Source: Tricholomella constricta
Taxonomy: Eukaryota; Basidiomycota; Agaricomycetes; Agaricales; Lyophyllaceae
Direction: 5' to 3'
DNA: 64,000 bases
Assembly: GCA_013368375.1 (NCBI GenBank)
Contig: JAACJP010000021.1
Location: 672,726 to 736,725 of the forward strand
A model generated the notes under the pieces. That model was not told where the DNA came from. It was given only the letters and a program-made list of their open reading frames with translations, and did no database searches. Both the position numbers and the translations under genes were made by a program. This document shows positions 15,990-64,000 of the stretch, in pieces. Every line of letters starts with the position of its first letter. Position 1 is the first letter of the stretch.

Positions 15990-17959
15990 ATGTCGTCCTT
16001 CAATCCCGATATCGCGGCCCCCGCCTCCGTTGACCCTAGCACGATTTTGTGCGATTCCGAGTTGGCGCATCTGTCCGTCGAAGATCGGGCGCTTGTGGCG
16101 TTCCTTGGTGTACCCCGACCCGTTTCCCCGATGTCCTCTCTTCCTGGGATTGTCACACTTGTCGATGGGAGTGTCGGGGCGGTCCCCGAATCTTCTCCCG
16201 CACCTCCCTCAATTCCCGATCATCGGCTGGTCATCCGTCTGCCGGTTCGATCTCGACAGATCCGGCGTCCTCGTTCCTCCACTCCAGAGGTTGAGTTCGA
16301 ACCGGCCAGCGATCCTGTGTCACGTCCGGCGGCGACCTCGTTGTCCTGGGGGTCCCTTTTGACGGATGAGCTGTTGGCGGAGATCTTGCGTACCGCTGTG
16401 CGGGTTCCCCCTTCCTTGGCGTGGTGTGAGACGCATGCACCGGTAAGTGTTGCCCTTTTTCTGCGATCGATTGTTGATTCCATTTTGGGGTCTTCGTTAG
16501 TGTGATCGTTGTCGGGAGCGTCGGCTGTCCTGTCGATTTCAGGAGGTCCGTCTTCGCGGGACCCTGCCCTGTGTCGACTGCCATGCGGCGCACTCCCTGT
16601 GTTCGCTTTCGTTGGAGCATGGCCTAGAAGTGGCCGCTAGGCAGTTGGGGCGTGGTTGCGCTCTCGTGCGGAAGGTTTTGCTTTCTCTCGCACTGGCGTT
16701 GTGATGTCCTTTACCAGCATCCGTCGCGCCTTGCGTTTACCGCTCCCCCCTCCTCTTCCCGTTGTTTCCACATCCCCTGAAGGGTCCGGTGCTGTTCCTC
16801 CTCCTCGTGCTCCCCCGCCTCGCGCCTTTTTTCGCGGTACGCGAGGCCAGGGTCGAAAGTCTGTGCCTGTTGGCCGTAGGGGTGCGCGCTTGTCCGTTCA
16901 GGAGGTGCGCTCTTCGCCTATCCCTGGCCCTTCTCCCTCCTCCTCCCGCGATAGTTCGGTTTCGCTTGTCCCCGTTCGTCGTTCTGGGCCCATTGTGCGC
17001 ACCGAGTCTCCGGATTCCCCCATCGCCGGCCCTTCGGAGCCTCTCTTTTTAAAAGGGTCATCCTCCTCAGGCTCTTCTTCACCCGTTTTGCCCTCTTCCC
17101 CCCCCGCCATGTTGATTTCGACCCCCCCTGCTGCTCCGGTTCCCTCCCCTCCCTCGTCTGAGGAGTACCTCCGTCTTCAACGTCTCTATGACCAGGAGGT
17201 CGCGCGCGCGCAGGCCCTCTCTGTTCAAGTCGAGCTTCTCCGGGTCGAGGGTCAGCGTGCCAAGTTCCATCTTCGTGGCGTATTGGCCGACTTCACCGAT
17301 GAACGTGAGCGTTTCCTTCATCTGCAGGCGCAGACTTCGGAGGTCGTAGACGTCGATCGTGACGCGGAGGTTGAGGATCTTCGGATGGAGGTGTCGGTTC
17401 TTCAGGATGAGGTTGCTGGTTTGCAGGGGCACGTTGTCCACCTTCAGGAGGTTAGGGATCATTGGCGTGGTCACGCCTTGGACCTCCGCACTCGCGTTGA
17501 CGGTGAGTTTCGATTCCCTTCATTTTCTCCTTCTTGTTTCTAAGACTTTTCGTAGCCCTCGACCTTGCGCATACCGCCTTCGCGTCCGATATGTATATCG
17601 CGGATGGTGCTTTGCGTCGCGCCCTCGTCGAGTTGGAGGCGTCGCCAGTCCGAAGTATCATCGATGGCGCCCACAAGATTCTTGAGCGGCACTCGCTCCT
17701 GGAGCTGTTCCGCCCCCCCGTCGATCCCGAGTCGCCGTTCCCCGCGTTCGAGCATTTCCTTGCTCTTCATCGCCCTTCTCTTACCCGCGAAGGTGCCTTG
17801 GCGGAGTTCGTATCTCAGTCTCAGTTGATCGCCGACGACGAGCAGGACATTGCGTCGATGCGTCCCCTGGAGATAGGGTTGGTTGGGGAGGTGGGGGGTG
17901 ATCGTGAGGGCGGTTCTTCTTCCAGTGCGGGTCCCTCTAAGCGTCGTCGCATCGAGTAG
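15990..17959 (+). pseudogene. Antisense three-exon accessory gene of element C, frameshifted
   Basis: Exon 1 is 15,990-16,442 from ATG (MSSFNPDIAAP). Intron 1 is 16,443-16,542 (GTAAGT...TTTCAG). Exon 2 is 16,543-17,502, intron 2 is 17,503-17,544 (GTGAGT...TCTAAG) and exon 3 is 17,545-17,959. Compared with the intact copy in F, exon 2 lacks 10 bp near 16,650 and exon 3 lacks one T in the run at 17,547-17,550; both shift the frame. The gene runs opposite to C's own transcript, so its introns survive retrotransposition. It encodes Cys-rich, proline-rich, coiled-coil and basic C-terminal segments (see the F copy). Function unknown. Confidence 0.8.
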
Positions 17960-18186: not shown

Positions 18187-19027
18187 TTAAATTGTGGGGT
18201 CCCGTGGTTTTCTTGGGAATAGTCGGTGGAATTCAAGGGCCATGTCCTTTGCTCCTTCTATATTCTCCGCTGGTTCCCAGGTATCGTCTTCGGGGCCGTA
18301 CCCTTCCCATCGTACCAAGTAGAGGACGTGTTTCCCTCGTGTTCGGGAATCCAGGATCTGTCCCACTTCGTAGTGTTCTTCGCCCTCGACTTCGATCGTC
18401 TGCGGAGGTGGTTTTGATCGTCCGGGGAAATTCTCGTGCTCGTGTTTCTCGAGCAACTTGACGTGGAAGACATTGTGAATCCCTTTCAGTGTCGGAGGTA
18501 GTTCCAGTCGATACGCGTGGCTGGAGATCTTCTGCAGGATTTTGAAGGGGCCCAGTCTCCGGTGGTCCAGCTTTTTGGAGGGGCGTTTCGTTTTGATGTT
18601 CCGGCAATCGAGCCATACCTCCGTTCCTACGGCCCAATCTGGTGTAGGGTCCCGTTTCTTGTCCGCGAATCGTTTGTAGGCTTCGTTTGCGATCTCTATC
18701 TCTTGGCGGAGGTAGTCCTGGAGGGTCCGGAGGTCTACGGCTACCTCTTGGGCTTCCTTTGCCGGTATGTCTTTTATAGAGATTGTCAGGCGGGGGTGAT
18801 AACCCTTGTTCGCAAAGAAAGGAGAGACTCCCGTGGTCGAATGGGTCGTATTGTTATACGTGAATTCCGCCAGTGGGAGCTGTGTTCGCCAGTTGGTCTG
18901 GAGGTAGTTCACGTATATCCGGAGGTACTGTTCCAGTGTCTGATTTACTCGTTCCGTCTGGCCGTCGGTCTCCGGGTGATACGCGGTCGAAAGGTTCGAT
19001 TTAATGTCCAGGGCTTTACACAGCGAG
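18187..19027 (-). pseudogene. pol: Element C pol, C-terminal part: integrase end and chromodomain
   Basis: Continues pol after the D insertion: second half of the integrase core (STAYHPETDGQTERVNQ, with the catalytic Glu), the GPF module ([12 protein letters not shown]) and a chromodomain near the end (HYEVGQILDSRTRGKHVLYL, VRWEGYGPEDDTWEP). The frame is open to the stop at 18,187. Chromodomains of this kind bind methylated histone H3 and bias insertion to heterochromatin. Confidence 0.93.
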
Positions 19028-19261
19028 TGTAACGACGGCGCGTTACAATACGTCTATATTGAGACGCGACCTGTTTGGCATTACCTTCTGGTAATGCACG
19101 ACCATCTTTGTTATGTGTATATAAATGTCCTGTACAGTTTATGCTTAGATAATCCTTTGCACCTTCACCCTGTACACGTACTTAGCAGAATCCCACAGAT
19201 TGGTCTAGCTTAACGTGTCTGGTGTCTCGCAAGGATCCCCCAACCCCGTACAACCGTTACA
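19028..19261 (+). repeat. 5' LTR of element D (234 bp) with TATA box
   Basis: TATATAAA at 19,118-19,125 suggests a transcription start near 19,150. I matched it base for base with the 3' LTR. The sequence after it (CTTTTTTAAGC) is not a standard TGG-initial tRNA site. Confidence 0.95.
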
Positions 19262-26386: not shown

Positions 26387-26527
26387 GGTGTGGCATGCAA
26401 TGTGCGCCACACAGCCACAGCGTGGCTGGACTCGATCACTTCGATCGAGTGGAGCTCCGATCGGGGGAGCGAAAAATTTTCTCTCTGCCCCCTTGTGCAC
26501 TACCACTATCACTAAAAATCGCACCTA
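26387..26527 (+). promoter_or_regulatory. Structured spacer between pol and ORF3 of element D
   Basis: Three perfect hairpins stand side by side: GTGTGGC (26,388-26,394) with GCCACAC (26,406-26,412); AGCCAC (26,413-26,418) with GTGGCT (26,422-26,427); CTCGATC (26,431-26,437) with GATCGAG (26,443-26,449). They could terminate, re-initiate or separately express ORF3. No intron or TATA box is evident. Confidence 0.5.
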
Positions 26528-29176
26528 ATGTCGTCTGGACAAGAATCAATGAGTTTTCGAGGAAACTCAAGAGGGGGAGGAACGCGTGGACGCCGCGGTT
26601 GCAATAACCGCAGCGCTACGAGTAATTCACCTCGCGTACAACATGCGCAACAAAATACGCAACCGCAAAACCAAGCACAGTCTCCACTGTCGTTTGGATC
26701 GATAGCATACCAGCCAACAATGGTACCGAGCTATCAGCCGTTCGAAGGACAGAATCCTTCCAACACAGGCGAGACGCCTGCTCCTGGACCCGCCGTTGAG
26801 CGCCTGCACGCTCCAATGGATGTCGATGGACATGGAGCAGGGCAACTCGAGCCTGGACAGCTGCCTGATGCTAAGAACAGAAGCGTCGAGATGGGACACC
26901 CCTCACAACAGCGTGGTGGTAACAAACCACACCGCCCAAAGGGGGGTGAACGAGCCGTCGAAGAGAAGGAAGGAAACCCCTCGAACTCTCACGGAAATAC
27001 TCGAGGTACGCATGCTGCGCCACGCAACGCACCACATGCTAATATGGGAACGAACCCAGACGGTATATTCAACCGCCTCGAGACCGTCGGAGTAGCACCC
27101 GACTTTGTAGTCGACTTCATCCATGATGGAATGGCAAGGGTCGTGATAGGACAACTACTCGACACCATTGACCGCCTTCAACGAGAAGTTGATCAGCAAA
27201 CCATGGCTAAACGCCACATCACCGAGGAGCTGCAACGCGCGCTACATAAGCGCCCCGCATCGCCGAACGCGATGCCTTATACCGACAAGCGTAGTCGGAC
27301 GCAGGGTCCTCAGACCGCACCCACATCGGTGCAGTCCACGGCGCCAGCGCAAGAAATAGGATCTGCGCCCACAAGCGCCGCCAAAGTACCTCTAGTGATC
27401 CCCACTATTGAGGTACCCTTTCCTCTTGGCGTACCTCCGCACATTGATGCTGGACGTATTGTACTTACGATACGTCAGGCCTTTGCGGTGCCCGAGCAGA
27501 TGCCCGTCGACGATGTACGATTGGTCGACGCTAGCTCGCCTGCCGATGAACCGATGCAAGAGACTGTAGAACCCTCTACCATCGGTACGCTGAAGGAGGA
27601 ACCAGCAAGCGAAACCGCCGACGAGCGTAGCTTACGAATGAAGCACAACGCCTCAGTCCGCCGCGACCGCCTTGCTGCAGACCGAGAAGCCAACGAACGC
27701 TTGAAGTATAACTTCGAGACATTCGTCGGACGCATTCCACATACTATTGGCGTACTACACATCAATGGTACTCCCGAACGCCACAACGCGTTTGGTGGAC
27801 TACTTCACCGACGCCTGTACTGGTCACCATACAGTAATACGGTGTTTGCCTCTCAGAGCGCTAGTCGCGCCCTAGAATACGAACGTGAACACAAAACCGC
27901 ATTCAATGCGACAGGCTCACCTTTGTACAAGTGTGCACCTCGCGGGTTCCCTATGTCCCCTCGAGACATCCGCAATCTGGTTCAGTTCCGTGACGATAAC
28001 TTCAACATGGATACCGAACGTGTGGAAGCCCACTACCTACTCTGGGACTTCTATCGTATCGCTTCACGATACGCCGAACCCCACAGAGACCGGACTATGA
28101 AGTTTATCCTTCAACGAGAATACTTCGATCCGGCTTACAAACCATCGATACGCGATGACGCTGCGTGGACACGACCTGTGTTACCACCGCCCGCTGGAGT
28201 ATTGTCCACTTCAGCGCGCAACCCTCGAACCCGAGGTGCGGGTTTACCCATACCATCGGTATCGCAAGCCCTGGACTTCAACGTGTGGGGACAATATATT
28301 GTACACCACGGAAGGCCAGGCCTAGACAACGTATACAGCGGTCTAGTGATCGACTACAACTTCTCGATCCACTTCCGCACTGTGGTCGGGTACGCCCTTG
28401 GTCGCGCCATAAGCCCTACCCGAGCCGCATCTCGTGTCGCATTCATGCGCCTATACGCCATGATCATTGCTCGACCGAACCTCTATCGAGAAGCGGTGGA
28501 CTCGTGGAATGCCATTCACCCATTGGATCGCATCCCCGACCACTTACCTTCTACGGCAAGCCTAGGTCGCTTAGCTCTTCCTGAGGAGCATGCCGCCAAC
28601 TTAACCAAAACGGACGTAATCCGTACGCTTTTAGCCAATCGACTACCCGTCGCTTGGATTGATCACGCCTATCCCTACGGCCTCCACTACTTGGATGCGC
28701 ATTATACGGGAACCACAATTGATCGTACACTATACGACAATGTGGACGACGACCGACTTGTTCGGCTATGTCGATACGGGATACCCCCGGCCATTCCTCA
28801 ATGGGATGGATGGCGACAGCCGACCCGCGATGATATCGCTAGACTCCACGTACTACTCGACTGCGAGAAAGAGCGAGGACTGGACACTGCGCATGCTCGC
28901 GGCCTACACCCTGTAGGATACGACATCACGTCGATGAAATTCATCACCGGACGTGACCGCGAAGCTACTGTACTCTACGACGGCGATCTGGTGTTTAACG
29001 ATACCACTGACCCGTCTGCGCCACCACCTATGGTGGAAGGTCCTCCGCTCCCAACTATCGAGTCCACTACGTCGCCAGCACCCTCTGCTCCATCTAGTTC
29101 ATCTGCACCACTGGTCCTTCTACCAGAGGCTAACGCTTCTGATGACCATGCGATGGATGTAGTCGAGAAGGCTTAA
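26528..29176 (+). CDS. Element D ORF3: 882-aa protein of unknown function downstream of pol
   Basis: Open from ATG 26,528 (MSSGQESMSFRGNSRGGG) to TAA 29,174-29,176. The start is an Arg-Gly-rich tract, then Gln/Pro-rich disordered sequence. A coiled-coil stretch is near residues 207-245 (QLLDTIDRLQREVDQQ), followed by basic patches (TDKRSRT). A large ordered half starts near residue 390 (FETFVGRIPHTIGVLHINGT) and includes WGQYIVHHGRPGLDNVYSG and AIPQWDGWRQPTRDDIARLH. The C-terminus is Pro/Ser-rich. I see no signal peptide or transmembrane segment, so it is not an envelope-type protein, and no protease, RT or integrase motif. It lies in the sense direction in an element with identical LTRs and has no stop, so it is probably expressed or was until very recently. 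A captured host gene or an accessory factor are both possible. Confidence 0.85.
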   Translation: MSSGQESMSFRGNSRGGGTRGRRGCNNRSATSNSPRVQHAQQNTQPQNQAQSPLSFGSIAYQPTMVPSYQPFEGQNPSNTGETPAPGPAVERLHAPMDVDGHGAGQLEPGQLPDAKNRSVEMGHPSQQRGGNKPHRPKGGERAVEEKEGNPSNSHGNTRGTHAAPRNAPHANMGTNPDGIFNRLETVGVAPDFVVDFIHDGMARVVIGQLLDTIDRLQREVDQQTMAKRHITEELQRALHKRPASPNAMPYTDKRSRTQGPQTAPTSVQSTAPAQEIGSAPTSAAKVPLVIPTIEVPFPLGVPPHIDAGRIVLTIRQAFAVPEQMPVDDVRLVDASSPADEPMQETVEPSTIGTLKEEPASETADERSLRMKHNASVRRDRLAADREANERLKYNFETFVGRIPHTIGVLHINGTPERHNAFGGLLHRRLYWSPYSNTVFASQSASRALEYEREHKTAFNATGSPLYKCAPRGFPMSPRDIRNLVQFRDDNFNMDTERVEAHYLLWDFYRIASRYAEPHRDRTMKFILQREYFDPAYKPSIRDDAAWTRPVLPPPAGVLSTSARNPRTRGAGLPIPSVSQALDFNVWGQYIVHHGRPGLDNVYSGLVIDYNFSIHFRTVVGYALGRAISPTRAASRVAFMRLYAMIIARPNLYREAVDSWNAIHPLDRIPDHLPSTASLGRLALPEEHAANLTKTDVIRTLLANRLPVAWIDHAYPYGLHYLDAHYTGTTIDRTLYDNVDDDRLVRLCRYGIPPAIPQWDGWRQPTRDDIARLHVLLDCEKERGLDTAHARGLHPVGYDITSMKFITGRDREATVLYDGDLVFNDTTDPSAPPPMVEGPPLPTIESTTSPAPSAPSSSSAPLVLLPEANASDDHAMDVVEKA

Positions 29177-29330
29177 CGACAACGTCGAGTGTATGCCACA
29201 GTCATGGTAGTCGTCGAAATACATACGCGATCACTAATTGAGCGGGAGTTGTATACTCACGCTTTGTACTTATAATAATAACCATGCACATCCATCTGCT
29301 GAGATCATACATTGATCTCAAAGGGGGGTG
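29177..29330 (+). promoter_or_regulatory. 3' untranslated stretch and polypurine tract of element D
   Basis: Non-coding, ending in AAAGGGGGGTG (29,320-29,330) directly before the 3' LTR, the expected plus-strand primer. Confidence 0.85.
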
Positions 29331-29564
29331 TGTAACGACGGCGCGTTACAATACGTCTATATTGAGACGCGACCTGTTTGGCATTACCTTCTGGTAATGC
29401 ACGACCATCTTTGTTATGTGTATATAAATGTCCTGTACAGTTTATGCTTAGATAATCCTTTGCACCTTCACCCTGTACACGTACTTAGCAGAATCCCACA
29501 GATTGGTCTAGCTTAACGTGTCTGGTGTCTCGCAAGGATCCCCCAACCCCGTACAACCGTTACA
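29331..29564 (+). repeat. 3' LTR of element D (234 bp)
   Basis: Identical to the 5' LTR over its full length as read by eye, which implies a recent insertion. It is followed by the duplicated GCGAG. Confidence 0.95.
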
Positions 29565-36367: not shown

Positions 36368-36818
36368 ACTATCCGGATCCGGACTGTTGCTGAGCTACCC
36401 GTCCACAATCCAATCCGGATATCGGCCGGAATTTCCGTGCACCCGCTGCTGTGGCTTCCGTCCAGTACTCAATCCGGGTTTCGGGCATGATTTCAGAACT
36501 GCTTGTGCAACAATTTCCGTGCAGTTTCCCTGCACTATCCAGATCCGGACCGTTGCTGAGCTGCCCGTCCACAATCCAATCCGGATATAGGCCGGAATTT
36601 CCATGCACCCGCTGCTGTGGTTTCCGTCCAGTACTCAATGCGGGTTTTGAACGTAGTTTCCATGCACGTTCAGCCGTAGTTTCTGTGCACATCCTGCCAG
36701 AGATTCCGTGCACTATCCAGATCTGGATCGTTGCTGAACTACCCGTGCACAGTCCGGTCCAGACATCAGCCTGAATTTTTGTGCACCCGCTGCTTTCCTT
36801 TCCGTGTAGTACTCAATC
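36368..36818 (-). repeat. Right arm of T, second segment (between C and B)
   Basis: Starts with the ACTAT duplication and carries inverted units with anchors near 36,462, 36,632 and 36,808. It is interrupted at CAATC (36,814-36,818) by element B. Confidence 0.85.
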
Positions 36819-42669: not shown

Positions 42670-43138
42670 TGTTAGGGCGACCTCACGAGCAGAGCTGAGT
42701 CGTACTGGCAGAGGGGAATCCGAAGTTATATTAAGTACAGTGAGGAATGTAAAGAGGGGCTTACCTGGCAGAGGGGAATCTGAAGAGAATAGACTAAGGA
42801 TCCCCAATGCCAGTGGGCCGACTATATACGAGTACTGTACATAATAATCAAGGAGTGGTCTGCGGCGCGTGTATGGACACGTTCCCGACGCTGTCCGATC
42901 CTCGTGGCTCAGGGTACGGGCACGAGTTGGGACAGCCGACGTCGGGATGTCGGGTGGTCGGGATCGGCGTCGGGCGCGCGCAGGGAGAGATGGGAACGAC
43001 AGGAAGTGTGTAAGTATATACACCGACGCTTGGGTCGGAGCGTCGGGGGTCGGAATCGCGAACGGTCGGGGGAGCGATCGCATGAGCGGGGGGACGATCG
43101 GTGAGCGTCGGAGGGCGCGAAAGGGGGTTCCCCTAACA
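42670..43138 (-). repeat. 5' LTR and promoter of element B (469 bp)
   Basis: TATATA at 42,823-42,828, with the self-primer segment starting about 26-31 bp downstream at 42,797. Confidence 0.92.
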
Positions 43139-44138
43139 CAATCCGGGTTTTGGGCGAGATTTTGGAACTGCTCGTGCCATTCCCGTGCAGTTCCCCTGCA
43201 CTATCCGGATCCGGATTGTTGCTGTACTACCCGTGCACAATCCGGTCCGGATATCGGCCGGAATTTCTGTGCACCCGCTGCTTTACTTTCCGTGCAGCAC
43301 TCAATCCAGGTTTCGGGCGTGATTTCAGAACTGCTCGTGCAACAGTTTCCGTGCAGTTCCCCTGCACTATCCGGATCTGGACTATTGCTGAGCTACCCGT
43401 CCACAATCCGATCCGGATATCGGCCGGAATTTCCGTGCACCCACTGCTGTGGTTTCCGTCCAGTACTCAATCCGGGTTTCGGGCATGATTTTGGAACTGC
43501 TTGTGCAACAGTTTCCATGCATTTCCCCTGCACTATCCGGATCCGGACTGTTGCTGAGCTACCCGTACACAATCCGATCCGGATATTGGCCGGAATTTTC
43601 GTGCACCCGCTGCTGTGGTTTCTGTCCAGTACTCAATCCGGGTTTCGGGCATGATTTTGGAACTGCTTGTGCAACAGTTTCCATGCATTTCCCCTGCACT
43701 ATCCGGATCCGGACTATTGCTGAGCTACCCATACACAATCCGATCCGGATATTGGCCGGAATTTTCGTGCACCCGCTGCTGTGGTTTCTGTCCAGTACTC
43801 AATCCGGGTTTTGAACGTGGTTTCCGTGCACATTCAGCCATAGTTTCCGTGCACATTCAGCCAGAGTTTCCGTGCACTATCCGACCCGGAATCCGGCTGT
43901 GAATTCCGTACAATATACCCAGATGGTTTGGCTACAGGCCCCATGGCCCTCTGTGGGTATAGAGAGCCCGCTGCTGCAGTAAACCACAATACAGTGTATT
44001 GCGTCCGCTACTTCGTTAACAACCACACACTGTACAGAGGTCCGCTACAGCACAGAGGACCCACTGGATGCGTCAACTACGGTACACTGTATAGGCCCGC
44101 TAGAGCGTTGGTCACATTACATTGTAGTGCCCTGCCCT
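43139..44138 (-). repeat. Right arm and right end of T
   Basis: Inverted units with anchors near 43,297, 43,460, 43,627 and 43,796. About 215 bp of terminal sequence follows (43,921-44,138) that mirrors 12,032-12,240 (GGCTACAGG...CCCGCTGCTGCAGTAAA; CACATTACATTGTAGTG). No gene. Confidence 0.85.
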
Positions 44139-44700: not shown

Positions 44701-45392
44701 ATGTCCTCGACGATAGTGGAGCCCAACACCACAGTCCGCTATCAAAACTTCGAAGGTCCCTCTTTCACACAAAGAAGACCTTCACCACCACCTTTCGAAA
44801 CCTCCCCTGCCTCAACAGGACACATGATGCAAGGGACCTTCGGAACCAACAGGTCCAGGCTGGAACACAACATTTTCCAACCAGGCCAACACGAGGGGGA
44901 CTTTTCCTCAGCCAGTCAGGACCCTCGACGACCCCTACCCCGGACCCCCTCAAACGTATTCAACCCGTCCTACCAACTCGCCACCCCCAACTATCCCCCC
45001 TTACCACCATCTGCAACGGCCTCCGGACCTCCGCCTTCAAGTAACCAGACTCCCGGGTCATACTACGAAAGGTTGAGGCACCCGGAGATGTTCCAGAGGA
45101 GGGATAGGGCTCGGGAGGAGGGACAGGGACACTTCGCTCGTCAACAAAACCCCTTCCTACACGGTTCAGACCACGAAAGGATACTCTACGAGCTCCGCAT
45201 GACGCGGGAAGAGTTTTCGCGACAAGCGCACGAGCTCCTAGTCGAAACCATGGGGATGGATCATCAACCCCGAACACCGGAACAATGGGCCAACCTCGTG
45301 TTGTCGACCATACAACTGCACGAAGCCCATCGATTACCCCCACAACTGACGGTGTTGCTACAAATGGGGGGAAACGAAAAAAGGTTACGCGC
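44701..45392 (+). pseudogene. gag: Element E gag, first part (split by F)
   Basis: ATG 44,701. The N-terminal third matches C more closely than F (TGHMMQGTFGTNRSRLEHN, where F has TGPPMQGTFGSNRSRLEHQ). It ends at F's insertion point (NEKRLRA) and resumes at 55,877. With F and one CGCGC copy removed, gag is a single 953-aa frame. Confidence 0.93.
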
Positions 45393-45738
45393 TGTCACGA
45401 CCGCCCCTAAACTCGCAATCACTTACGCTTTCCCACGCACGCCCACCGTATATATGATGGCACCACTTCTTTTCAGACTCCTTACCTCGATATTACCTAT
45501 TGTTAAGACTAGTTCTCGATTCTCGTTCTCGTTTCTCTCTCTCTCTCTCAATCTATTTGGCTTCACACCCGTATCACTTGAGCTCGTTCGTTCGAATCAG
45601 CCCCGGTGAACACCTCCGTCAACGCTCACGACCTCCGAATACTCCTTCGTAGGCCGTCTTCCTTGACGGACGTCAGGCCTGTCCGCTTCGGTGGTTCCAG
45701 AATAACTCTGTAACCGGCGTGCTACACAGGTCCTAACA
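45393..45738 (+). repeat. 5' LTR and promoter of element F
   Basis: TATATAT at 45,449-45,455. The self-primer ACCTCGATATTA is at 45,484-45,495, about 30-35 bp downstream. A CT microsatellite lies in U5. It ends CCTAACA. Confidence 0.95.
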
Positions 45739-45750
45739 TAATATCGAGGT
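45739..45750 (+). promoter_or_regulatory. Self-complementary primer-binding site of element F
   Basis: TAATATCGAGGT, immediately after the LTR, pairs over 12 nt with ACCTCGATATTA in R. Confidence 0.75.
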
Positions 45751-45767
45751 CTACCCACCCACCGGAC

Positions 45768-48640
45768 ATGTCCTCGACGATAGTGGAGCCTAACACAACC
45801 ATCCGCTATCAAAACTTCGAAGGTCCCTCCTTCACTCAAAGGAGACCTTCACCACCACCCTTCGAAACCTCCCCTGCCTCAACAGGACCTCCGATGCAAG
45901 GGACTTTCGGATCCAACAGGTCCAGGTTGGAACACCAGATCTTCCAACCTGGCCAACATGAGGGGGATTTTTCCTCAGTCAGTCAGGACCCACGACGACC
46001 CCTACCCCGAACCCCCTCAAACGTATTCAACCCCTCTTACCAACTCGCCACCCCCAACTATCCCCCCTTACCACCATCCGCAACGACCTCCGGACCTCCG
46101 CTTTCAAGTAACCAGACTCCCGGATCGTACTACGAAAGGTTGAGGCACCCGGAGATGTTCCAGAGGAGGGATAGGGCACGAGAGGAGGGACAGGGACAGT
46201 TCGCTCGTCAACAAAACCCCTTTCTACACGGTTCAGACCACGAAAGGATACTCTACGAACTCCGCATGACGCGAGAAGAGTTTTCACGACAAGCGCACGA
46301 GCTCCTAGTCGAAACCATGGGGATGGATCATCAACCCCGAACACCGGAACAATGGGCCAACCTCGTGTTGTCGACCATGCAACTGCACGAAGCCCATCGA
46401 TTACCCCCACAACTGACGGTGTTGCTACAAATGGGGGGAAACGAAAGAAGGTTACGCGCTCTGGCTGGAGAAATCCAGACGTCCAACGAGGGAAGAAGAT
46501 TCTCCGACCCCCAAAGCGCGGGACGTTCCTTCCACATGCCAATTCAGGAGCCCGTTCCCTCCAGAATCGAAACTAGATTCGAAGAACCTCCACGAGCGAC
46601 AAGCACGGTCAATACGCAGACAGCTTCGGCTCTACTCAGGAGGATGAACCAAGGGAACGCTCCCCCCAGCCAAGAAGGGTTCGAACCCACCGTCACACCA
46701 GGAGCAGACGCTCGAAGAGCTCCGACGTTCGGGTTCTGGGGAGCCCACAACTTACAAAGAATCCCCGAAGAGAACCCCCCTGTCGAAGGACCGTTTTCCA
46801 GGCCAAATTCGGGTTTTCAGGGCCCACAGGGGACCTTCGCAAACCAAGAAGGAGTACCTCCGAGGGAACCTGAGAACATTCCCCTACCTCCGTCGGAACG
46901 GGGAATCCCAACGCCACTGTCGTACGCCCACAGCTACGAACTATGCGAAGAAAACTCGGAAAGAAGAGAGGGAGCACCCCCTAGGGCACGAGAAGACTGG
47001 CGCCAAACACCACCTCATCTGGCAAGTCAGAACAGGAGGTCACCACAAGGCCCACGCCCAATCTCCCCAAGAGAACGACGTGGAATCGGAGCGGACCCCG
47101 GCCCCGGTCAAAACGTAAACATCCTCGACGGAAGGCAAGGGACCCAACAACAATTCCCCCAGTTCGAACAATACAGAACTGGATACAACCCCGGACCAGC
47201 CCCACCCATACCCGGCGGACGACCGAACCCCCAGTACAACGGACCACCTCCACAGCCCCAACCCCCTCCGGGATCTTCGGGACCACCTACCCCGAGAGGA
47301 ACTCAATGGGGAAACGGCCCCGGAGGACCAGGAGGGGGAGGAGGAGGTTATTGGGGAAACGGCCCCGGAGGAACAGGAGGTCCTGGAGGAGGGGGAGGTC
47401 ACGGAGGATACGGACCACCACAAGGACCAGGAGGCCCGGGAGGCCCCGGAGGTCCCGGAGGTCCCGGAGGGGAGGAGGAGGCCACGGAGGAGGAGGAGGA
47501 GGAGGCCCACCCGGAAATCCGGGAGGAGGCCAATTCGCAAACCCTCAACGACCCCCACCTCCACCGCAACAGCTCTTAGGCCCAAACCAAAACCTGACCC
47601 CGGAACAGTACCGACACCTCCTAAACCTGGAATCGAAAATCGACATCAGGAAACCGGACCCCTTCACTGGAAAAGAACCGAGGAGATGGAAAACCTTCGT
47701 CACGGAATGCCTAGTAACGTTTCAAGCCAAGGCGATCACCTACGAACAGGATCACCTGAAGGTGTCATTCGCGAGCTCCTACTTAAAGGACGGAGCTATG
47801 GACTACTTTCGGCTGCAACTCACGTACAACCCCCAACACCCAATGTTCACGAATTGGGAAGGATTCGTACACGAATTAGGATCACGCTTCGGAATACCGA
47901 ACTCGAGAGTGGAAGCCGAGAACAACATTTCGCGACTGAAAATGAAGGAATGGGAAAAGTTCACAGCATTCATCATCAAGTTCGAACAAGAAGCGTACGA
48001 AACAGGCTGGAACTGGGTAGCACTACAGTTCACACTCCGGAAAGCGCTCCCCCAACGAATCCTTAACGTCCTGGCCATCGCACCAAGCCCCGAAACCTAC
48101 GAAGGTTACCGAGATCTGGTCACCCAAATCGACCGGAGGTACTGGGAACATCGCATAGAAAATCCAGAGTCCTACAAACCCCTCTGGGCGAATAATGCGA
48201 ACACCTCCAACACCTCCGCACGACCTCCGATGGGACCTTGGGCCGGACCCGCAAGCCGCACGACGCCGCAAACGGCTCAGGGGAACAAGAACGCACGCTT
48301 GAACGCCGAAAGTCATGATCAGGACCCGGACTCAGGTAAGGAAGGTAAGGCGCAAGACCAAGAAATCGCATGGGATGACGAAGAGGCACTACAAGCCAAC
48401 AACTTCGGATTCAAGAAGTCAACGCGCCCCTGGGTGAAGATCGATGAAGACGTAAAGCAACAACGAATTCGAGACAAGGCCTGCATCCTATGCGGTGACC
48501 TGGAACACTGGATGCGCGACTGCCCAACAGCAAACGCCATGGGCAGAGCCACCTACCTCATCGGCGACGACATCTTCGAATTCCATCACAAGACAGAAGA
48601 GGGAAACGCGGGGGCGATTCAGGACTTACCCGGGCTCTGA
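45768..48640 (+). pseudogene. gag: Element F gag, one-base frameshift in the glycine tract
   Basis: ATG 45,768. Open to the glycine-rich region, where a G-run has four G instead of E's five near 47,470, shifting the frame to a stop at 47,579. The downstream frame (capsid core, CCHC knuckle CILCGDLEHWMRDC) is open to TGA 48,638-48,640. Adding one base gives 958 codons, close to E's 953 aa. The lesion could also be a sequencing error in a G-rich run. Confidence 0.9.
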
Positions 48641-48645
48641 ATCGC
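48601..48645 (+). promoter_or_regulatory. Candidate -1 frameshift signal of element F
   Basis: GGGAAAC (48,601-48,607), spacer of 6 nt, GCGATTCAG (48,614-48,622) pairing with CTGAATCGC (48,637-48,645). The gag stop lies in the second arm. Confidence 0.75.
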
Positions 48646-51600
48646 GAAGAGCTGAAACCGGGCCTTGACACTAAACTACGCGCAACGGCACTATCGACAA
48701 CGGACACCCGCACTGTAACACTCTCCTCCCACTCGTCCCTGGCATTCTTAATACACCTCACGCCAAACGGAGGAGGAGAAAAACCCGAAAATACGCTTAT
48801 CGACAGCGGAGCTACCGACAACTTCATGGACTCCGACATGGCGACATCACGCGGGCTCCACCTTGAGGAGCTCAAACCCCCAATAAACCTTTGCCTATTT
48901 GATGGAGAACTCTCCGCATCGGGCAAAATCACACACTATACCACCAACGACGTCAAATTCAGTGACGGCACCACGCAGAGGATAAGGTTCCTCCTTACGA
49001 AACTCCACGAGACAGCTGCGATAGTGTTGGGACTATCATGGTTGAAGGAGGTCAACCCCCGAATAAACTGGAAAGACCTCTGCATCACGCTACGAAGGGG
49101 GTCAAACGGCAAAATTGAAGGATCACTACCGGACCTCCGAAGGAAAAAGGAAGTCGTCCCAACGACAACAGGCACAGGAGATCAACGCTTACCCTCGCGG
49201 TCAGCTCGCTCCTTCACGATCGAAGTACAGTTAGAAGGATCCTCAACGCGACTACGGGCACTTATCGATAGTGGAGCGGCGGGAAATTTCATAGCACAAT
49301 CCTCGTGTACGAAACCGGAACCTCTCGCCAGCCCCATGACCCTACAACTGTTCGACGGAAACCCCAGCGGAGGTGGAGCCATTTCACACCATAGTCCCGA
49401 AACAATCAAACTTGAGAACGGACTAGAGTATAAGGTCGACCTCCTCATAACACAGTTACACCCGGCCACGCCACTAGTGCTCGGATTACCTTGGTTACGG
49501 GAAGCAAATCCGGACATCGACTGGCGGGAAATGTCCATGACCATGGAACAAGGGGCAGGACTAGCCGCGATATCGCTTTCCCAGAAGACGCAATGGAGAA
49601 CCGTGACCCTTGAGGAGGAGGAAGACGTCGAAGCTCCGAAACCAGCCAACCCCCTTTCGGAAAAACAACCCCTCCTCAGGGACCTCCTGGACGACGACAA
49701 CGATCAGAACGACACCTCCAGCGATAACATGAAGGAGGAAGACACTCGCCCAAACACCAACGAACCCCAAGAGGAAGTACCAACACCGACAACCGAGTCA
49801 CCAGAGGAGATAACGGGACGGAAACGCACCCGAAAACCACCCCCACCGAACTACTTCCCTCCAAACGTTCCGAGGTCCAAATTCAAACCCCACCCCAAAC
49901 GGAAATCCGCAACGTCCCCAACGACAGAAACACAGGAAGAAGAGGAAACCAACCCGGAAACGGAGGCCGAAGACGAAACGGGAGAGGGAGAAGAGGATGT
50001 CGAAACACAAAACATCCGCCTGATCGGAGCGGCGCCATTCGCGAACCTCATCAGGGACGGAGCCACAGCGTTCCAACTACACATCTCCCCCACCGAAAAG
50101 GAAGAACACCTCCATGCCAATAACACCTCCGACGATGAACCCAAGCAACCAAAGACAGAAAGGGAAATCTTCGAGGAAGTCGTACCTCCGGAGTACAGGG
50201 ACTTCGAAGACGTATTCTCAGCGGGCGAAGCGAAAACCATCCCCCCACACTGACCCTACGATCACACAGTGGAACTCGACGAAAACACTACCCCTCCCTT
50301 CGGAAAGATATACAACATGTCCGAACTGGAGTTGAAAGCATTGAAGGATTACATCGACGAGATGCTCGGAAAAGGGTTCATCCGACCTTCGAGTTCGTCA
50401 GCGGGAGCTCCGGTACTGTTCGCAAAGAAGAAGGACGGATCACTCCGGCTATGCGTGGACTATAGAGGATTAAATCGGATCACCAAGAAGAACCGTTACC
50501 CTCTACCTCTGATCGGAGACCTCATAGACCGACTTCAAAAAGCGAAAGTATACTCGAAGATCGACCTCCGAGTGGGCTACAACAACGTCCGCATAGCTCC
50601 GGGACACGAATGGAAGACAGCCTTCCGCACTCGTTATGGACTTTTCGAATACCTGGTAATGCCTTTCGGCATGACAAACTCACCCGCGACATTCCAACAC
50701 TTCATGAACGACATCTTCCACGACATGAACGACGTGTTCGTAGTGATCTACCTCGACGACATTCTGGTTTTCTCGGAGACCTTAGAGGAACATCACGGAC
50801 ACGTTCGGAAGGTCCTCGAGAGGCTCCGGAAACACAACCTTCATGCGAAACCGGAGAAATGCACGTTTCACACTACGGAGATCGAATACCTAGGCGTCAT
50901 CGTATCCCCCGGCGGAGTAAAGATGGATCCAGGAAAAGTCGACGCGATCCGGAAGTGGCCTAGACCGACGAAGGTCAAGGAACTCCAATCTTTCCTAGGC
51001 TTTGCAAACTTCTATCGGCGGTTTATCGACAATTACTCGGGCATAACGAAGAGGTTAAATAAACTCACGCAAAAGGACACAATCTGGAAATGGGATTCCG
51101 AATGCGAAGGAGTCTTCGAGCTATTGAAGAAAGCATTCTCCTCCGCACCCATCCTACGACACTTCGATCCTCAACTACCGGTGATACTAGAGTGCGATGC
51201 CTCCGACTTCGCCATAGCGGGGATCATCTCCCAATTTGACGAGACATCACAAGACTTACGTCCGGTCGCCTTCTACGCGAGAACTATGATAGACGCGGAG
51301 CTCAACTACGACATCTATGACAAGGAGCTCCTAGCAATCGTGGAAGCGTTTAAACAATGGAGGGCCTACCTAGAGGGATCTCCCCACCGCATTCAAGTGT
51401 ACTCCGACCACAACAACCTACAGTACTTCTCCACGACCAAACAACTCAGTCGCAGACAAGCACGATGGTCGGAATGCCTGGCGAACTTCGACTTCCAGAT
51501 AAACTATCGACCCGGAAGACTGGGAGCGAAGCCAGATGCCCTTACGCGAAGAGCGGACGTGTATCCAAAGAAGGGTTTCGAGCAGGATCACAACTCCTTC

Positions 51601-53106
51601 AACAACCGCATCATCATACCCCCCGAACGATTGAACGCGGCCCTAATACTGAACGAGGAGCTCCTACTAAACAATGTCCGGAACGCACCCCGAGACGATT
51701 TCTTCGAAAGGCATGCACCCAAACCCGGAGAAGAGACCTCCGCATTCTCCCTATCCGATGATCACAAACTACTCCTTCGCGACGGAAGAATCTATGTACC
51801 AGACCATTCCAGATTACGACTCGACATCCTACAGCAACACCACGATCACAAACTGCGCGGACATCCAGGGATCAGAAAGACCACACAACTCATCATGAGG
51901 ACTTATTTCTGGCCCGGATTACGGAAGGAGGTCACTCGATACGTCCGAAGCTGTCATACCTGTAAAAGAGCGAAGGTCCCACGCCATAGCCCATACGGAT
52001 TATTGAAACCACTCCAGATTGGGCGAAGGGCGTGGGCCTCCATATCCATGGACCACATCGTAGAATTACCGGAATCGGATGGGTACGACGCCATACTGGT
52101 CGTAGTATGCCGCCTCACCAAGCAAGGCATCTTCATACCCTGTCACACAACGGACACAGCAAAGGAACTTGCTCAGCTATTCTTGGAACATGTCTTCTCC
52201 AAGCACGGACTGCCCGATGACATCATCTCCGACAGAGGCACCCTCTTCGTCTCCCGTTTCTGGAGCTCGCTATGTAAAGCCCTGGACATCAAATCGAACC
52301 TTTCGACCGCGTATCACCCGGAGACCGACGGCCAGACGGAACGAGTAAATCAGACACTGGAACAATACCTCCGGATGTACGTGAACTATCTCCAGACCAA
52401 CTGGCGAACACAGCTCCCTCTGGCGGAATTCACGTATAACAATACGACCCATTCGACCACGGGAGTTTCCCCTTTCTTTGCGAACAAGGGTTATCACCCC
52501 CGCTTGACAATCTCTATAAAAGATATACCGGCGAAAGAAGCCCAGGAGGTAGCCGTAGACCTCCGGACCCTCCAGGACTACCTCCGCAAAGAAATAGAGA
52601 TCGCAAATGAAGCTTACAAACGATTTGCAGATAAGAAACGGGACCCTACACCAGACTGGGCCGTAGGAACGGAAGTATGGCTCGACTGCCGGAACATCAA
52701 AACGAAACGCCCCTCCAAAAAGCTGGACCACCGGAGACTGGGCCCCTTCAAAATCCTGCAGAAGATCTCCAGCCACGCGTATCGACTGGAACTACCTCCG
52801 ACACTGAAAGGGATTCACAATGTCTTCCACGTCAAGTTGCTCGAGAAGCACGAGCACGAGAATTTCCCCGGACGATCAAAACCACCTCCGCAGACGATCG
52901 AAGTCGAGGGCGAAGAACACTACGAAGTGGGACAGATCCTGGATTCCCGAACACGAGGGAAACACGTCCTCTACTTGGTACGATGGGAAGGGTACGGCCC
53001 CGAAGACGATACCTGGGAACCAGCGGAAAATATAGAAGGAGCAAAGGACATGGCCCTTAAATTCCACCGACTATTCCCAAGAAAACCACGGGACCCCACA
53101 ATTTAA
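48608..53106 (+). pseudogene. pol: Element F pol with tandem proteases; single nonsense codon
   Basis: Enters in the -1 frame from gag. Two retropepsin domains have Asp-Ser-Gly at 48,802-48,810 and 49,267-49,275. An acidic, threonine-rich linker (49,600-50,160) precedes a TGA at 50,251-50,253, where E has CGA (Arg). RT follows (KKKDGSLRLCVDYRGLNR, KIDLRVGYNNV, VIYLDDILVF), then RNase H (ECDASDFAIAG, SDHNNLQYF), integrase (HHCC at about 51,838-51,970; SMDHIVELPE; SDRGTLF; TDGQTERVNQ), the GPF module and a chromodomain (52,918-53,060, VRWEGYGPEDDTWEP), to TAA at 53,104-53,106. Apart from the stop, every motif is intact. Confidence 0.94.
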
Positions 53107-53322
53107 AAAGACACTCGACGAACACTCACGCACACCAACACATCACGAAAATTATGCAAATTTTCCCAAGACTAAACTCTACTATACGTATTCAACCACC
53201 AGCGCAACAATATCACACAAAGAAAAAATATCAAGAAAAAAAGAAAAACAAACGAACGAACTCCGGACTGTAAATATTCAGCAAAAAATAAACGCAGGCC
53301 AAGACGCTGCAGAAGGGACCGA
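53107..53322. other. Tail-to-tail gap between pol and antisense gene in element F
   Basis: A-rich on the plus strand, without an ORF. It corresponds to 17,960-18,186 in C and presumably holds both 3' ends. Confidence 0.5.
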
Positions 53323-55303
53323 CTACTCGATGCGACGACGCTTAGAGGGACCCGCACTGGAAGAAGAACCGCCCTCACGATCACCCCCCACCTCCCCAAC
53401 CAACCCTATCTCCAGGGGACGCATCGACGCAATGTCCTGCTCGTCGTCGGCGATCAACTGAGACTGAGATACGAACTCCGCCAAGGCACCTTCGCGAGTA
53501 AGAGAAGGGCGATGAAGAGCAAGGAAATGCTCGAACGCGGGGAACGGCGACTCGGGATCGACGGGGGGGCGGAACAGCTCCAAGAGCGAGTGCCGCTCAA
53601 GAATCTTGTGGGCGCCATCGATGATACTTCGGACTGGCGACGCCTCCAACTCGACGAGGGCGCGACGCAAAGCACCATCCGCGATATACATATCGGACGC
53701 GAAGGCGGTACGCGCAAGGTCGAGGGCTACGAAAAAGTCTTAGAAACAAGAAGGAGAAAATGAAGGGAATCGAAACTCACCGTCAACGCGAGTACGGAGG
53801 TCCAAGGCGTGACCACGCCAATGATCCCTAACCTCCTGAAGGTGGACAACGTGCCCCTGCAAACCAGCAACCTCATCCTGAAGAACCGACACCTCCATCC
53901 GAAGATCCTCAACCTCCGCGTCACGATCGACGTCTACGACCTCCGAAGTCTGCGCCTGCAGATGAAGGAAACGCTCACGTTCATCGGTGAAGTCGGCCAA
54001 TACGCCACGAAGATGGGACTTGGCACGTTGACCCTCGACCCGGAGAAGCTCGACTTGAACAGAGAGGGCCTGCGCGCGCGCGACCTCCTGGTCATAGAGA
54101 CGTTGAAGACGGAGGTACTCCTCAGACGAGGGAGGGGAGGGAACCGGAGCAGCAGGGGGGGTCGAAATCAACATGGCGGGGGGGGAAGAGGGCAAAACCG
54201 GTGAAGAAGAGCCTGAGGAGGATGACCCTTTTAAAAAGAGAGGCTCCGAAGGGCCGGCGATGGGGGAATCCGGAGACTCGGTGCGCACAATGGGCCCAGA
54301 ACGACGAACGGGGACAAGCGAAACCGAACTATTGCGGGAGGAGGAGGGAGAAGGGCCAGGGATAGGCGAAGAGCGCACCTCCTGAACGGACAAGCGCGCA
54401 CCCCTACGGCCAACAGGCACAGACTTTCGACCCTGGCCTCGCGTACCGCGAAAAAAGGCGCGAGGCGGGGGAGCACGAGGAGGAGGAACAACACCGGACC
54501 CTTCAGGGGATGTGGAAACAACAGGAAGAGGAGGGGGGAGCGGTAAACGCAAGGCGCGACGGATACTGGTAAAGGACATCGCAACGCCAGTGCGAGAGAA
54601 AGCAAAGCCTTCCGCACGAGAGCGCAACCACGCCAAGGGAATCCCCAACTGCCTAGCGGCCACTTCTAGGCCATGCTCCAACGAAAGCGAACACAGGGAG
54701 TGCGCCGCACGGCAGTCGACACAGGGCAGGGTCCCGCGAAGACGGACCTCCTGAAATCGACAGGACAGCCGACGCTCCCGACAACGATCACACTAACGAA
54801 GACCCCAAAATGGAATCAACAATCGATCGCAGAAAAAGGGCAACACTTACCGGTGCATGCGTCTCACACCACGCCAAGGAAGGGGGAACCCGCACAGCGG
54901 TACGCAGGATCTCCGCCAACAGCTCATCCGTCAAAAGGGACCCCCAGGACAACGAAGTCGCCGCCGGACGTGACACAGGATCGCTGGCCGGTTCGAACTC
55001 AACCTCTGGAGTGGAGGAACGAGGACGCCGGATCTGTCGAGATCGAACCGGCAGACGGATGACCAGCCGATGATCGGGAATTGAGGGAGGTGCGGGAGAA
55101 GATTCGGGGACCGCCCCGACACTCCCATCGACAAGTGTGACGATCCCAGGAAGAGAGGACGTCGGGGAAACGGGTCGGGGTACGCCAAGGAACGCCACAC
55201 GCGCCCGATCTTCGACGGACAGCTGCGCCAACTCGGAATCGCGCAAAATCGTGCTAGGGTCAACGGAGGCGGGGGCCGCGATATCGAGATTGAAGGACGA
55301 CAT
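53323..55303 (-). CDS. Intact antisense three-exon accessory gene of element F (612 aa)
   Basis: Exon 1 is 55,303-54,851 (453 nt, ATG), intron 1 is 54,850-54,751 (GTAAGT...TTTCAG), exon 2 is 54,750-53,781 (970 nt), intron 2 is 53,780-53,739 (GTGAGT...TCTAAG, 42 nt) and exon 3 is 53,738-53,323. Spliced length is 1839 nt with no internal stop. The protein has Cys at about 146, 161, 164 and 171 (C-x14-C-x2-C-x6-C, formed across intron 1; possible zinc site), a proline/serine/arginine-rich middle, a coiled coil near 360-465 (EEYLRLQRLYDQEVARAQ; DAEVEDLRMEVSVLQDEV), a conserved exon 3 domain (SDMYIADGALRRALVELE) and a basic C-terminus (PSKRRR), a likely nuclear signal. I do not recognise a family. 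A DNA- or chromatin-associated role is only an inference from the layout. Confidence 0.82.
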
Positions 55304-55525
55304 GAGCAGGACGAAGAGAAGATGGAGGAGGAACAAACAACCTAAGTTTTTTCTCTTTCGATCTCCGAGATCCTCAAAAACACCCACAAGGACCTACAAC
55401 CGAGACCGACACGTGCCCCTCACGTGACCGCGCGCGACCCAGAAAGGAGAATAACCGCCACACTCCCCGTATTCGAACATTTCTTTTTCTGCGTCTCAGT
55501 GGCTCGACGCTTGAGAAGGGGGTAA
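55304..55525 (-). promoter_or_regulatory. Candidate promoter of the antisense gene and polypurine tract of F
   Basis: Contains paired CACGTG boxes (55,410-55,415 and 55,421-55,426) upstream of the antisense ATG. On the plus strand it ends in GAAGGGGGTAA, the polypurine tract next to the 3' LTR. Confidence 0.45.
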
Positions 55526-55871
55526 TGTCACGACCGCCCCTAAACTCGCAATCACTTACGCTTTCCCACGCACGCCCACCGTATATATGATGGCACCACT
55601 TCTTTTCAGACTCCTTACCTCGATATTACCTATTGTTAAGACTAGTTCTCGATTCTCGTTCTCGTTTCTCTCTCTCTCTCTCAATCTATTTGGCTTCACA
55701 CCCGTATCACTTGAGCTCGTTCGTTCGAATCAGCCCCGGTGAACACCTCCGTCAACGCTCACGACCTCCGAATACTCCTTCGTAGGCCGTCTTCCTTGAC
55801 GGACGTCAGGCCTGTCCGCTTCGGTGGTTCCAGAATAACTCTGTAACCGGCGTGCTACACAGGTCCTAACA
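55526..55871 (+). repeat. 3' LTR of element F
   Basis: Identical to the 5' LTR as read by eye. It is followed by CGCGC and the resumed gag of E. Confidence 0.95.
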
Positions 55872-55876
55872 CGCGC

Positions 55877-62726: not shown

Positions 62727-64000
62727 CTACTCGATGCGACGACGCGACCTGCACTGGCAGAGGAACCGTCCTCGCGCCCAACCCCCACCTCCCCAACCAC
62801 CCCTACCTCCAGAGGAAGCATCGACGCGATGTCCTGCTCGTCGTCGGCGATCAATTGAGACTGAGACACGAACCCCGCAAGGGCGTCTTCACGAGTGAGA
62901 GATGGACGATGAAGAGCAAGGAAATGCTCGAAGGCGGGAAAAGGGGACTCGGGATCGACGGGAGGGCGAAAAAGCTCGCGGAGAGAATGCTGCTCAAGAA
63001 TCTGGTGAGCGGCGTCGACGATCCCGGCGACGCCTCCATCTCGACGAGGGCGCGACGCAGAGCGCCATCCGCAACAAACATATCGGATGCGAAAGCAACA
63101 CGCGCAAGCTCAAGAGCTACAACAAATTCCGGAGGTGAAAAAAGAGAACAAAAGAAGACAAAAGAAAGACTCACCATCGGTGCGAACGCGAAGGTCCAAG
63201 GCATGACCACGCCAATAGTCCCGAACCCCTGGAGATGGACGACGTGCCCCTTCAGACCCGCAACCTCATCCTCAAGACCCGCAACCTCCATCCGCAGATC
63301 CTCGACCTCGGCGTCACGATCGACGTCGACGACCTCCACGGCACTCGATGTCTGCGCCTGCAGATGAAGGAAACGTTCACGCTCGTCGGCGAGTTCGGCT
63401 AGGACTCCACGAAAACGACCCTTGTTGCGTTCGCCCTCGGCCTGGAGACGCTCTACCTGGAGGGACAAAGCCTGCGCACGCGCGACCTCCTGGTCATAGA
63501 GGCGCCGAAGACGGAGGTGCTCCTCAGGCGAAGGAGCAAGAGGGGCAGGAGCAGCGGGGGGGACGACATCAACATAGCAGGAGGGGAAGCCTGGTGCAGA
63601 ACCGGTGAGGGAGAGACCGATTCAGACGAACTCTTTAAAAAGAGAGGCTCCGAGGGCCCGACGATGGGAGAATCCGGAGAAGCGGCACGCATGGCGGCCC
63701 CAAGACGACGAACAGGGAAAGGGGAAACCGAGCTATCGGAGGGGGAGGAGAATAACCAGGCATAGGCGAAGGGCGCGCCTCCGGAACAGACAAGCGCGCA
63801 CCCCCACGACCGACAGGCACAGACCTTCGTCCCTGACCTCGCGTACCACGGAAAATAGCACGAGGAGGGGGAGCAGGAGGAAGTGAAACGGCACCAGTCC
63901 CTACAACGGACGAAGAGGCGGCGGGAAGAGGAGGCGGGATTGGCAAACGCAGGGCGCGACGGAATGCTGGTAAAAGACATCGCAACGCCAGGCGGGAGAA
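62727..64000 (-). pseudogene. Antisense accessory gene of element E (partial, diverged, frameshifted)
   Basis: Exon 3 and most of exon 2 are visible; exon 1 is beyond the window. The intron 2 donor GTGAGT (63,173 down to 63,168) sits at the same place as in F, but the intron sequence differs and an acceptor (TTTGTTGTAG) is less certain. Coiled-coil and exon 3 blocks remain clear (RDAEVEDLRMEVAGLEDEV; SDMFVADGALRRALVEMEAS). A frameshift follows EASPG, so this copy is broken. Differences from F in the conserved block are almost all at third codon positions. Confidence 0.75.

Follow-up and report, generated by a model that had tools for sequence, protein, structure and literature searches.

A family of Ty3/gypsy chromoviruses in the basidiomycete Tricholomella constricta carries a spliced gene on the strand opposite to gag and pol, in the interval between pol and the 3′ LTR. 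At the level of sequence comparison it is clear that this gene consists of three exons and two conserved introns and is under purifying selection across subfamilies F, E, G and H (and, for exons 2 and 3, subfamily I), and that gene and U3 are jointly inherited as one 3′ module, which has been reassorted among gag-pol/R-U5 backbones. We think it reasonably probable that this selected antisense gene and its U3 form a reassorting 3′ module of a Tf1-type chromovirus, and that the gene encodes a nuclear regulator.

The gene was studied from a window of 64,000 nucleotides of contig JAACJP010000021.1, and its copies were sought in the T. constricta genome (44 Mb, 118 contigs). The copy examined most closely belongs to element F, which is laid out as follows (positions are those of the window).

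45393 to 55871, plus strand: element F, a full-length chromovirus nested in element E
45393 to 45738, plus strand: 5′ LTR
45739 to 45750, plus strand: putative primer-binding site for self-priming, TAATATCGAGGT, a complement of LTR positions 92-103
50254 to 53106, plus strand: pol (RT, RNase H, H2C2, rve, SH3_Tf2-1, chromodomain), with its stop at 53106
55513 to 55522, plus strand: polypurine tract ahead of the 3′ LTR, GAGAAGGGGG
55526 to 55871, plus strand: 3′ LTR, with a presumed U3 at 55526-55616 and a presumed R start at 55617
55582 to 55588, plus strand: TATATAT within the 3′ LTR
55613 to 55630, plus strand: 18-nt block in which the U3 type switches to the R-U5 type, CCTTACCTCGATATTACC

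Element F is flanked by a 5-bp target-site duplication (CGCGC, at 45388-45392 and 55872-55876), and its two LTRs, of 346 nt each, show no difference from one another. It carries gag, followed by pol with reverse transcriptase, RNase H, integrase and chromodomain. The order of Pfam matches along pol (RVT_1, RT_RNaseH, Integrase_H2C2, rve, SH3_Tf2-1, Chromo) identifies it as a Ty3/gypsy chromovirus; Chromo scores 51.3 bits (cut-off 25.1), and rve stays under its own cut-off (28.9 against 32.6 bits). An in-frame stop codon at 50251-50253 parts pol from the protease part; many other copies have a frame of 1535 codons, and F may depend on them.

In Tf1-type self-priming, the 5′ end of the element RNA pairs with a site located after the 5′ LTR. 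The 12 nt that follow the 5′ LTR of F are perfectly complementary to LTR positions 92-103 (45484-45495), 35 nt past TATATAT, where the RNA would begin, and the same 12 nt also stand directly after the 5′ LTRs of elements E and C. The family resembles the Tf1/sushi chromoviruses in this complementarity to an LTR-internal site, in its chromodomain and in SH3_Tf2-1, and differs from them in the accessory antisense gene, which belongs to the T. constricta family. Self-priming is described in passing in PMC2864245.

The antisense gene of F has the following features.

53323 to 53726, minus strand: exon 3 with stop codon, 404 nt, encoding a PSKRRRIE end that by eye resembles a nuclear localisation signal
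53727 to 53780, minus strand: intron 2 (corrected), 54 nt, GTGAGT...CGTAG
53781 to 54792, minus strand: exon 2, 1012 nt
53781 to 54150, minus strand: predicted long helices or coiled coil, about residues 366-488, from an AlphaFold2 model of the annotated protein P0002
54691 to 54792, minus strand: cysteine cluster resembling Zn2Cys6, encoded by the first part of exon 2 (residues 152-185)
54793 to 54850, minus strand: intron 1 (corrected), 58 nt, GTAAGT...TTAG
54851 to 55303, minus strand: exon 1, 453 nt, followed by intron 1 in phase 0
55410 to 55428, minus strand: promoter-like block with two CACGTG boxes upstream of the gene, GTCACGTGAGGGGCACGTG

The sequence-only reading of the window had placed a three-exon gene at 53323-55303 on the minus strand of F. 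This location, past the pol stop (53106) and ahead of the 3′ LTR (55526-55871), is confirmed, as are both splice donors, the intron phases of 0 and 1 and a frame that stays open after splicing. Both acceptors require correction: intron 1 occupies 54793-54850 rather than 54751-54850, and intron 2 occupies 53727-53780 rather than 53739-53780, so that introns of 58 and 54 nt leave a product of 622 amino acids in place of the 612 codons originally proposed. The evidence comes from P0001 and P0002, two T. constricta proteins annotated by others, which both contain the 14 residues CDRC..CRFQ that the longer intron 1 would have removed, and which read ..D/ALDLAR or ..D/ALELAR across intron 2, i.e. 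use the later acceptor. Furthermore, both corrected splice patterns are present in 49 of 49 copies read. Copy E lacks the acceptor first proposed for intron 2; of 14 E-type copies, 11 lack it as well, and the other three (L047-L049) have it in the form CCAG. The 58-nt intron 1 ends in TTCGTTAG and leaves the phase unchanged; the protein gains CDRCRERRLSCRFQ, which together with CVDCRAAHSLC makes up a complete six-cysteine pattern. In the P0001 model, residues called Ty1/copia reverse transcriptase are moreover fused to the antisense gene at its front, probably because adjacent elements were annotated as one gene. Upstream of the gene, both CACGTG boxes are retained in eight of nine aligned copies, the first being absent from K (L032).

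Two further copies of the gene lie in the window.

15990 to 17959, plus strand: copy C, 98.3% identical to F, with a 10-nt gap in exon 2 that breaks the frame
62727 to 64000, minus strand: copy E, 79% identical to F, with several frame-breaking indels, ended by the contig end

Both had been described as the same gene in the same place, and the place holds; intactness does not, given the gap in C and the indels and contig-end truncation of E. A search of the genome with the exon-2 protein returned at least 122 matches, corresponding to at least 110 full or partial copies after clustering; since 120 of 173 candidates were scored, these counts are lower bounds. A search for other copies between pol and LTR had been suggested as a check, and 103 of the 110 listed copies lie antisense to and 3′ of a pol of the family, with none in any other arrangement. 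The remaining seven have no listed pol within 6 kb: in four, the contig ends within 0.9 kb in the direction in which pol is expected, and three are fragments of 123-159 codons. Conversely, the search with pol gave at least 117 clustered copies (117 of 855 candidates scored), and 5 of 107 listed pol copies of the family (≥80% identity) are without a listed exon 2 within 6 kb. One of these five is E, whose degraded antisense gene lies in the window. For the ten listed pol copies that belong to other families (45-48% identity), no exon 2 is listed within 6 kb. No host-gene copy outside the element was seen among the matches listed by the exon-2 search (120 of 173 candidates scored); at this coverage, and with 117 of 855 pol candidates scored, a distant host paralogue could be missed.

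Splicing and reading frame were followed across copies at 49 distinct places (63 sequences scanned; L009-L034, L038 and L040-L061, where L010 is F and L033 is C). The introns vary freely in length, with 58, 67, 69, 70, 73 or 75 nt for intron 1 and 52, 53, 54, 57, 58, 59 or 60 nt for intron 2. The exons change in steps of three: where the frame is unbroken, exon 2 measures 1012, 1021, 1042, 1048 or 1057 nt, and exon 1 measures 441, 447 or 453 nt in full-length copies. The spliced frame reaches exon 3 in 39 of the 49 copies and is broken in 10. Full length (621-632 amino acids) is found in 35 of these 39, the four altered copies being L011 (578 amino acids), L047 and L048 (606 each) and L060 (512). 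In L060, which is the one copy read from at least 11 similar ones listed, the exon-1 frame is disrupted upstream of the cysteine cluster. Splice sites are conserved even among subfamilies whose exon-2 proteins differ by as much as about 40%, and the picture of random stops and unconserved splice sites that would speak against a functional gene was not seen in the 49 copies.

Selection was estimated as dN/dS by the Nei-Gojobori method, using the full coding sequence for subfamilies F, E, G and H, and exons 2 and 3 for subfamily I. In all 17 between-subfamily pairs of full coding sequences, which are not independent of one another, dN/dS is 0.23-0.29 at a dS of 0.45-0.90; for exons 2 and 3 alone, with subfamily I included, it is 0.17-0.33. 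Codon bootstrapping of nine comparisons between F and E- or G-type copies gives upper limits of 0.35 or below. By region (three comparisons), the cysteine part is lowest (0.08-0.17) and the linker highest (0.36-0.55). Pairs within subfamilies (n = 4) give 0.36-1.01, or 0.41-1.81 for exons 2 and 3, as expected for copies that decay after insertion. Free intron lengths, exons changing by threes and the low between-subfamily ratio together argue for an accessory gene that is under selection and has introns that act as such; a chance open reading frame or an annotation artefact is ruled out by the same ratio and by the behaviour of exon and intron lengths. The earlier proposal of a functional spliced passenger antisense in a Gypsy element is supported by these conserved splice sites, exon lengths and ratios. 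Selection and intron behaviour thus back a coding function for a gene whose family numbers at least 110 full or partial copies in several subfamilies, many of them near-identical.

In the protein, the cluster CDRCRERRLSCRFQEVRLRGTLPCVDCRAAHSLC follows the six-cysteine pattern C-x2-C-x6-C-x5-12-C-x2-C-x6-8-C, which is PROSITE PS00463, and the six cysteines are retained in 7/7 and 5/5 proteins of two alignments. The Pfam cut-off for Zn_clus (21 bits) is not reached, the best score being 15.5 and that of F itself 11.1, and no other domain passes; with Zn_clus under its cut-off, we do not file the protein as a Zn2Cys6 factor. Gal4-type Zn2Cys6 factors combine this cysteine spacing with basic residues of the form CDRCRxRR and a coiled coil further on. 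The antisense protein, whose coiled coil is predicted, is like them in all three respects, and unlike them in its sub-threshold Zn_clus score, in having no Fungal_trans match up to an E-value of 1 and in the position of the cluster, at residues 152-185. AlphaFold2 predicts two long helices in P0002, with a pLDDT of about 57-77 over the helices only; the model mean is 44.6, too poor for a fold search. Only two matches were obtained among solved structures, with E-values of 1.5 and 5.5, both in coiled coils. Queries with a single sequence, an alignment and the cysteine-cluster region found P0001 and P0002 as the sole matches among candidates scored, and no homologue beyond T. constricta among these candidates, from which transposon proteins are often masked. 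From the Zn2Cys6-like cluster, the predicted helices and the KRRR tail, taken with the nuclear location or predicted DNA binding of antisense proteins in plant elements (discussed below), we infer that the protein is a nuclear regulator of its element.

The antisense gene has a history of its own relative to the backbone that carries it. Between F and nine E- or G-type copies, dS is 0.064-0.197 in pol and 0.515-0.880 in the antisense gene, a ratio of 4.5-8.4. The reverse contrast is found between F and C, which are 98.3% identical in the antisense gene and about 86% identical in the LTR. Copies of gene types F, E and G are interleaved in a tree of LTRs from 39 copies (leaving out L012, L014, L016, L026, L032, L034, L053 and L059-L061), and a single clade in the LTR genealogy is rejected for F-type (p-AU 0.0004) and E-type copies (p-AU 0.007).

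In an alignment of 15 LTRs representing ten combinations, 43 columns are fixed by gene type, none of them beyond column 132 (the first 13 reflect only how the stretches were cut, which leaves 30), and 61 columns are fixed by LTR type, all at or after column 151. The change from one regime to the other falls at the 18-nt block. Within it, 35 nt past TATATAT, lies ACCTCGATATTA, which is perfectly complementary to the 12 nt directly downstream of the 5′ LTR, and by analogy with Tf1-type self-priming this site would mark the start of R. Typing of U3 and R-U5 was attempted for 46 of the 49 copies (L059-L061, short stretches containing no LTR, were omitted) and gave 42 clearly typed copies after the loss of L026 (no LTR), L030 and L032 (no block) and L053 (weakly typed). 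In every one of these 42 copies the U3 is of the same type as the gene (39 of 39 when the three U3 reference copies are set aside), and R-U5 type is free: gene type F occurs with R-U5 types A, B, T and Q in 16, 2, 2 and 3 copies, gene type E with the same four in 8, 2, 3 and 1 copies, and gene type G with A and T in 4 and 1 copies. A classification of LTRs into two types proved too coarse, as at least four R-U5 types exist. On the pol side, divergence climbs gradually across the last few hundred bases of pol with no single breakpoint.

LTRs of this make-up are the expected product when strong-stop DNA, made on the 5′ end of one RNA, moves to the 3′ end of a second RNA. U3 and gene are linked because they are neighbours at the RNA's 3′ end, and this linkage, taken alone, is no evidence that the protein acts on U3. 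At the start of U3 (55526-55560), a unit of 13-14 nt, similar to ACGACCGCCCCTAA, appears by eye to occur once in F-type copies and twice in those of types E and G; the doubled unit is a candidate site.

In the mechanism that we propose, the packaged RNA would be the sense strand, in which antisense splice sites would go unread, so that the introns could survive every RNA cycle. The introns would thus explain why the gene needs its antisense orientation, and an intron-bearing gene can in this way persist through an RNA cycle. The promoter of the gene would lie within the 222 nt that separate its ATG from the LTR, or else in U3. Heterologous RNAs would be co-packaged, and minus-strand strong-stop DNA (R-U5) would jump to the 3′ end of the other RNA, giving rise to hybrid LTRs. 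The least certain steps concern the protein, which is predicted to enter the nucleus, form dimers and act in trans on its own U3 or on chromatin, thereby setting transcription of the element as an activator or anti-silencing factor, or else as a self-limiting repressor. Since the gene-U3 module is split from R-U5 where first-strand transfer would split it, action of the protein on its own promoter becomes directly testable. A stronger version, which we hold only tentatively and consider rather unlikely in full, sees the 3′ end as an exchangeable cassette with a regulatory role, in which an antisense, intron-bearing gene encodes a DNA-binding protein and U3 is its target; gene and U3 would be inherited as a pair and reach other gag-pol/R-U5 backbones by intermolecular first-strand transfer, with several old types kept by frequency-dependent conflict. 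If true, this conflict would be with host silencing or with resident copies.

What the protein does for the element can be read in two opposite ways. It may be an anti-silencing factor or activator that lifts host silencing from its own family, a possibility we take seriously while judging it somewhat unlikely. The antisense gene and U3 diverge by subfamily, as this reading would have it, and among near-identical copies 309 of 615 transitions in the antisense gene are CpG transitions (L009-L058, 36 comparisons with a reference copy), when in the F reference roughly one in three of all G and C positions belongs to a CpG (205 dinucleotides, 1228 bases). Such richness is compatible with methylated elements and makes an anti-silencing role plausible, but the excess is only about twofold per site, the comparisons share ancestry and other causes are possible. 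U3 is moreover without a repeat array, apart from the one doubled unit seen by eye in E- and G-type copies. A parallel exists in VANC of the VANDAL elements of Arabidopsis, which coevolves with its target motifs (PMC5735166). There, an element-encoded factor diverges with the non-coding DNA of its element (PMC5735166, PMC10398659), as is proposed here for T. constricta; VANDAL is a plant DNA transposon, and the likeness drawn here is one of role. The opposite reading, in which the protein is a self-limiting repressor that shuts the U3 of the family (copy-number control) and new module types escape the resident repressors, appears unlikely to us. It would account for the coexistence of several old module types on younger backbones, for the co-travelling of U3 and gene, and for near-identical copies suggestive of bursts; yet a repressor should be easily lost from individual copies, which could benefit from the others, and the gene is full-length in 35 of the 49 copies read.

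The remaining explanations deny the protein a role or the module its exchange. Introns suggest descent from a cellular gene, and no relatives were found in other species, so the gene could be a captured host gene that rides along without use to the element. This is improbable, because the gene types (dS 0.5-0.9) are older than the split of the backbones on which they sit and show selection between subfamilies, and because no intact copy lies outside the element among the matches listed (the seven without pol being the four near contig ends and the three fragments). Antisense transcripts with non-coding roles are known from other elements (PMC7264820), but a gene that matters only through its antisense RNA, e.g. 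as a source of double-stranded RNA, with the protein incidental, would hardly show a dN/dS of 0.23-0.29, exons in steps of three and conserved splice sites, and we give this explanation very little credence. Least credible of all is that the antisense gene simply mutates faster, without exchange between elements. The gradual climb of divergence towards the end of pol fits this idea, but synonymous sites differ 4.5-8.4-fold between adjoining regions, and non-coding parts of the LTR reassort against gene types at one switch point; this reassortment rules out faster mutation of the cassette in place of exchange.

Antisense accessory reading frames in this place are already known in plants, and one fungal case has been published. 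In plant Gypsy elements, the class termed aORF-3R (antisense, between pol and the 3′ LTR) includes gene23 of maize Grande, rice RIRE2, Retand of Silene and other angiosperms (TRP28) and PvRetro13 (PMC7264820, PMC11963269). The Grande product is nuclear and has its own promoter, TRP28 of Retand is predicted to bind DNA, and Retand is described as a non-chromovirus (PMC7264820, PMC11963269); what such antisense genes do for their LTR retrotransposons is, according to PMC7264820, unknown. The T. constricta gene shares with the plant genes its position, its orientation and its presence in most copies, and is set apart by its two introns, chromovirus backbone, fungal host and Zn2Cys6-like pattern. 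No sequence relation to plant aORF-3R proteins was found among the scored database candidates. In fungi, PMC7264820 and PMC8365987 cite a report of the antisense gene brtn in Boty-like elements, found in Botrytis cinerea and in Sclerotinia (Zhao et al., 2011, Virology). Like the present gene it is fungal and antisense, and it is grouped with aORF-3R, i.e. between pol and the 3′ LTR, in PMC7264820; it differs in its ascomycete hosts.

The sequence-only reading had held that a spliced antisense gene was not known from a fungal family. This stands with respect to splicing, for which no precedent was found, and falls with respect to an antisense fungal gene as such, given brtn of Boty (PMC7264820, PMC8365987). 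No published spliced antisense gene in a fungal LTR retrotransposon was recognised in the literature within our reach, which takes in little of the subscription journals, and the word 'intron' does not occur in the accessible parts of PMC7264820 and PMC11963269. As far as these searches reach, what is new are the introns, the selection on the spliced frame, a protein family without known relatives and the reassorting module of gene and U3.

Two minor observations concern the rest of the window. Diverged repeats of about 165 nt occur in both orientations in several places (12042-13953, 36368-36818 and 43136-43883). In addition, a second chromovirus, element B, is nested in element C, with LTRs at 19027-19261 and 29330-29564, and bears a third open reading frame, this one on the sense strand, which lies between pol and the 3′ LTR and has 886 codons (26516-29176, plus strand). 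This frame has no Pfam match at an E-value of 0.01. With 51 of 256 candidates scored, the genome holds at least 53 matches to it, at least 14 of which are free of stops from residue 1 or 2 to residue 886.
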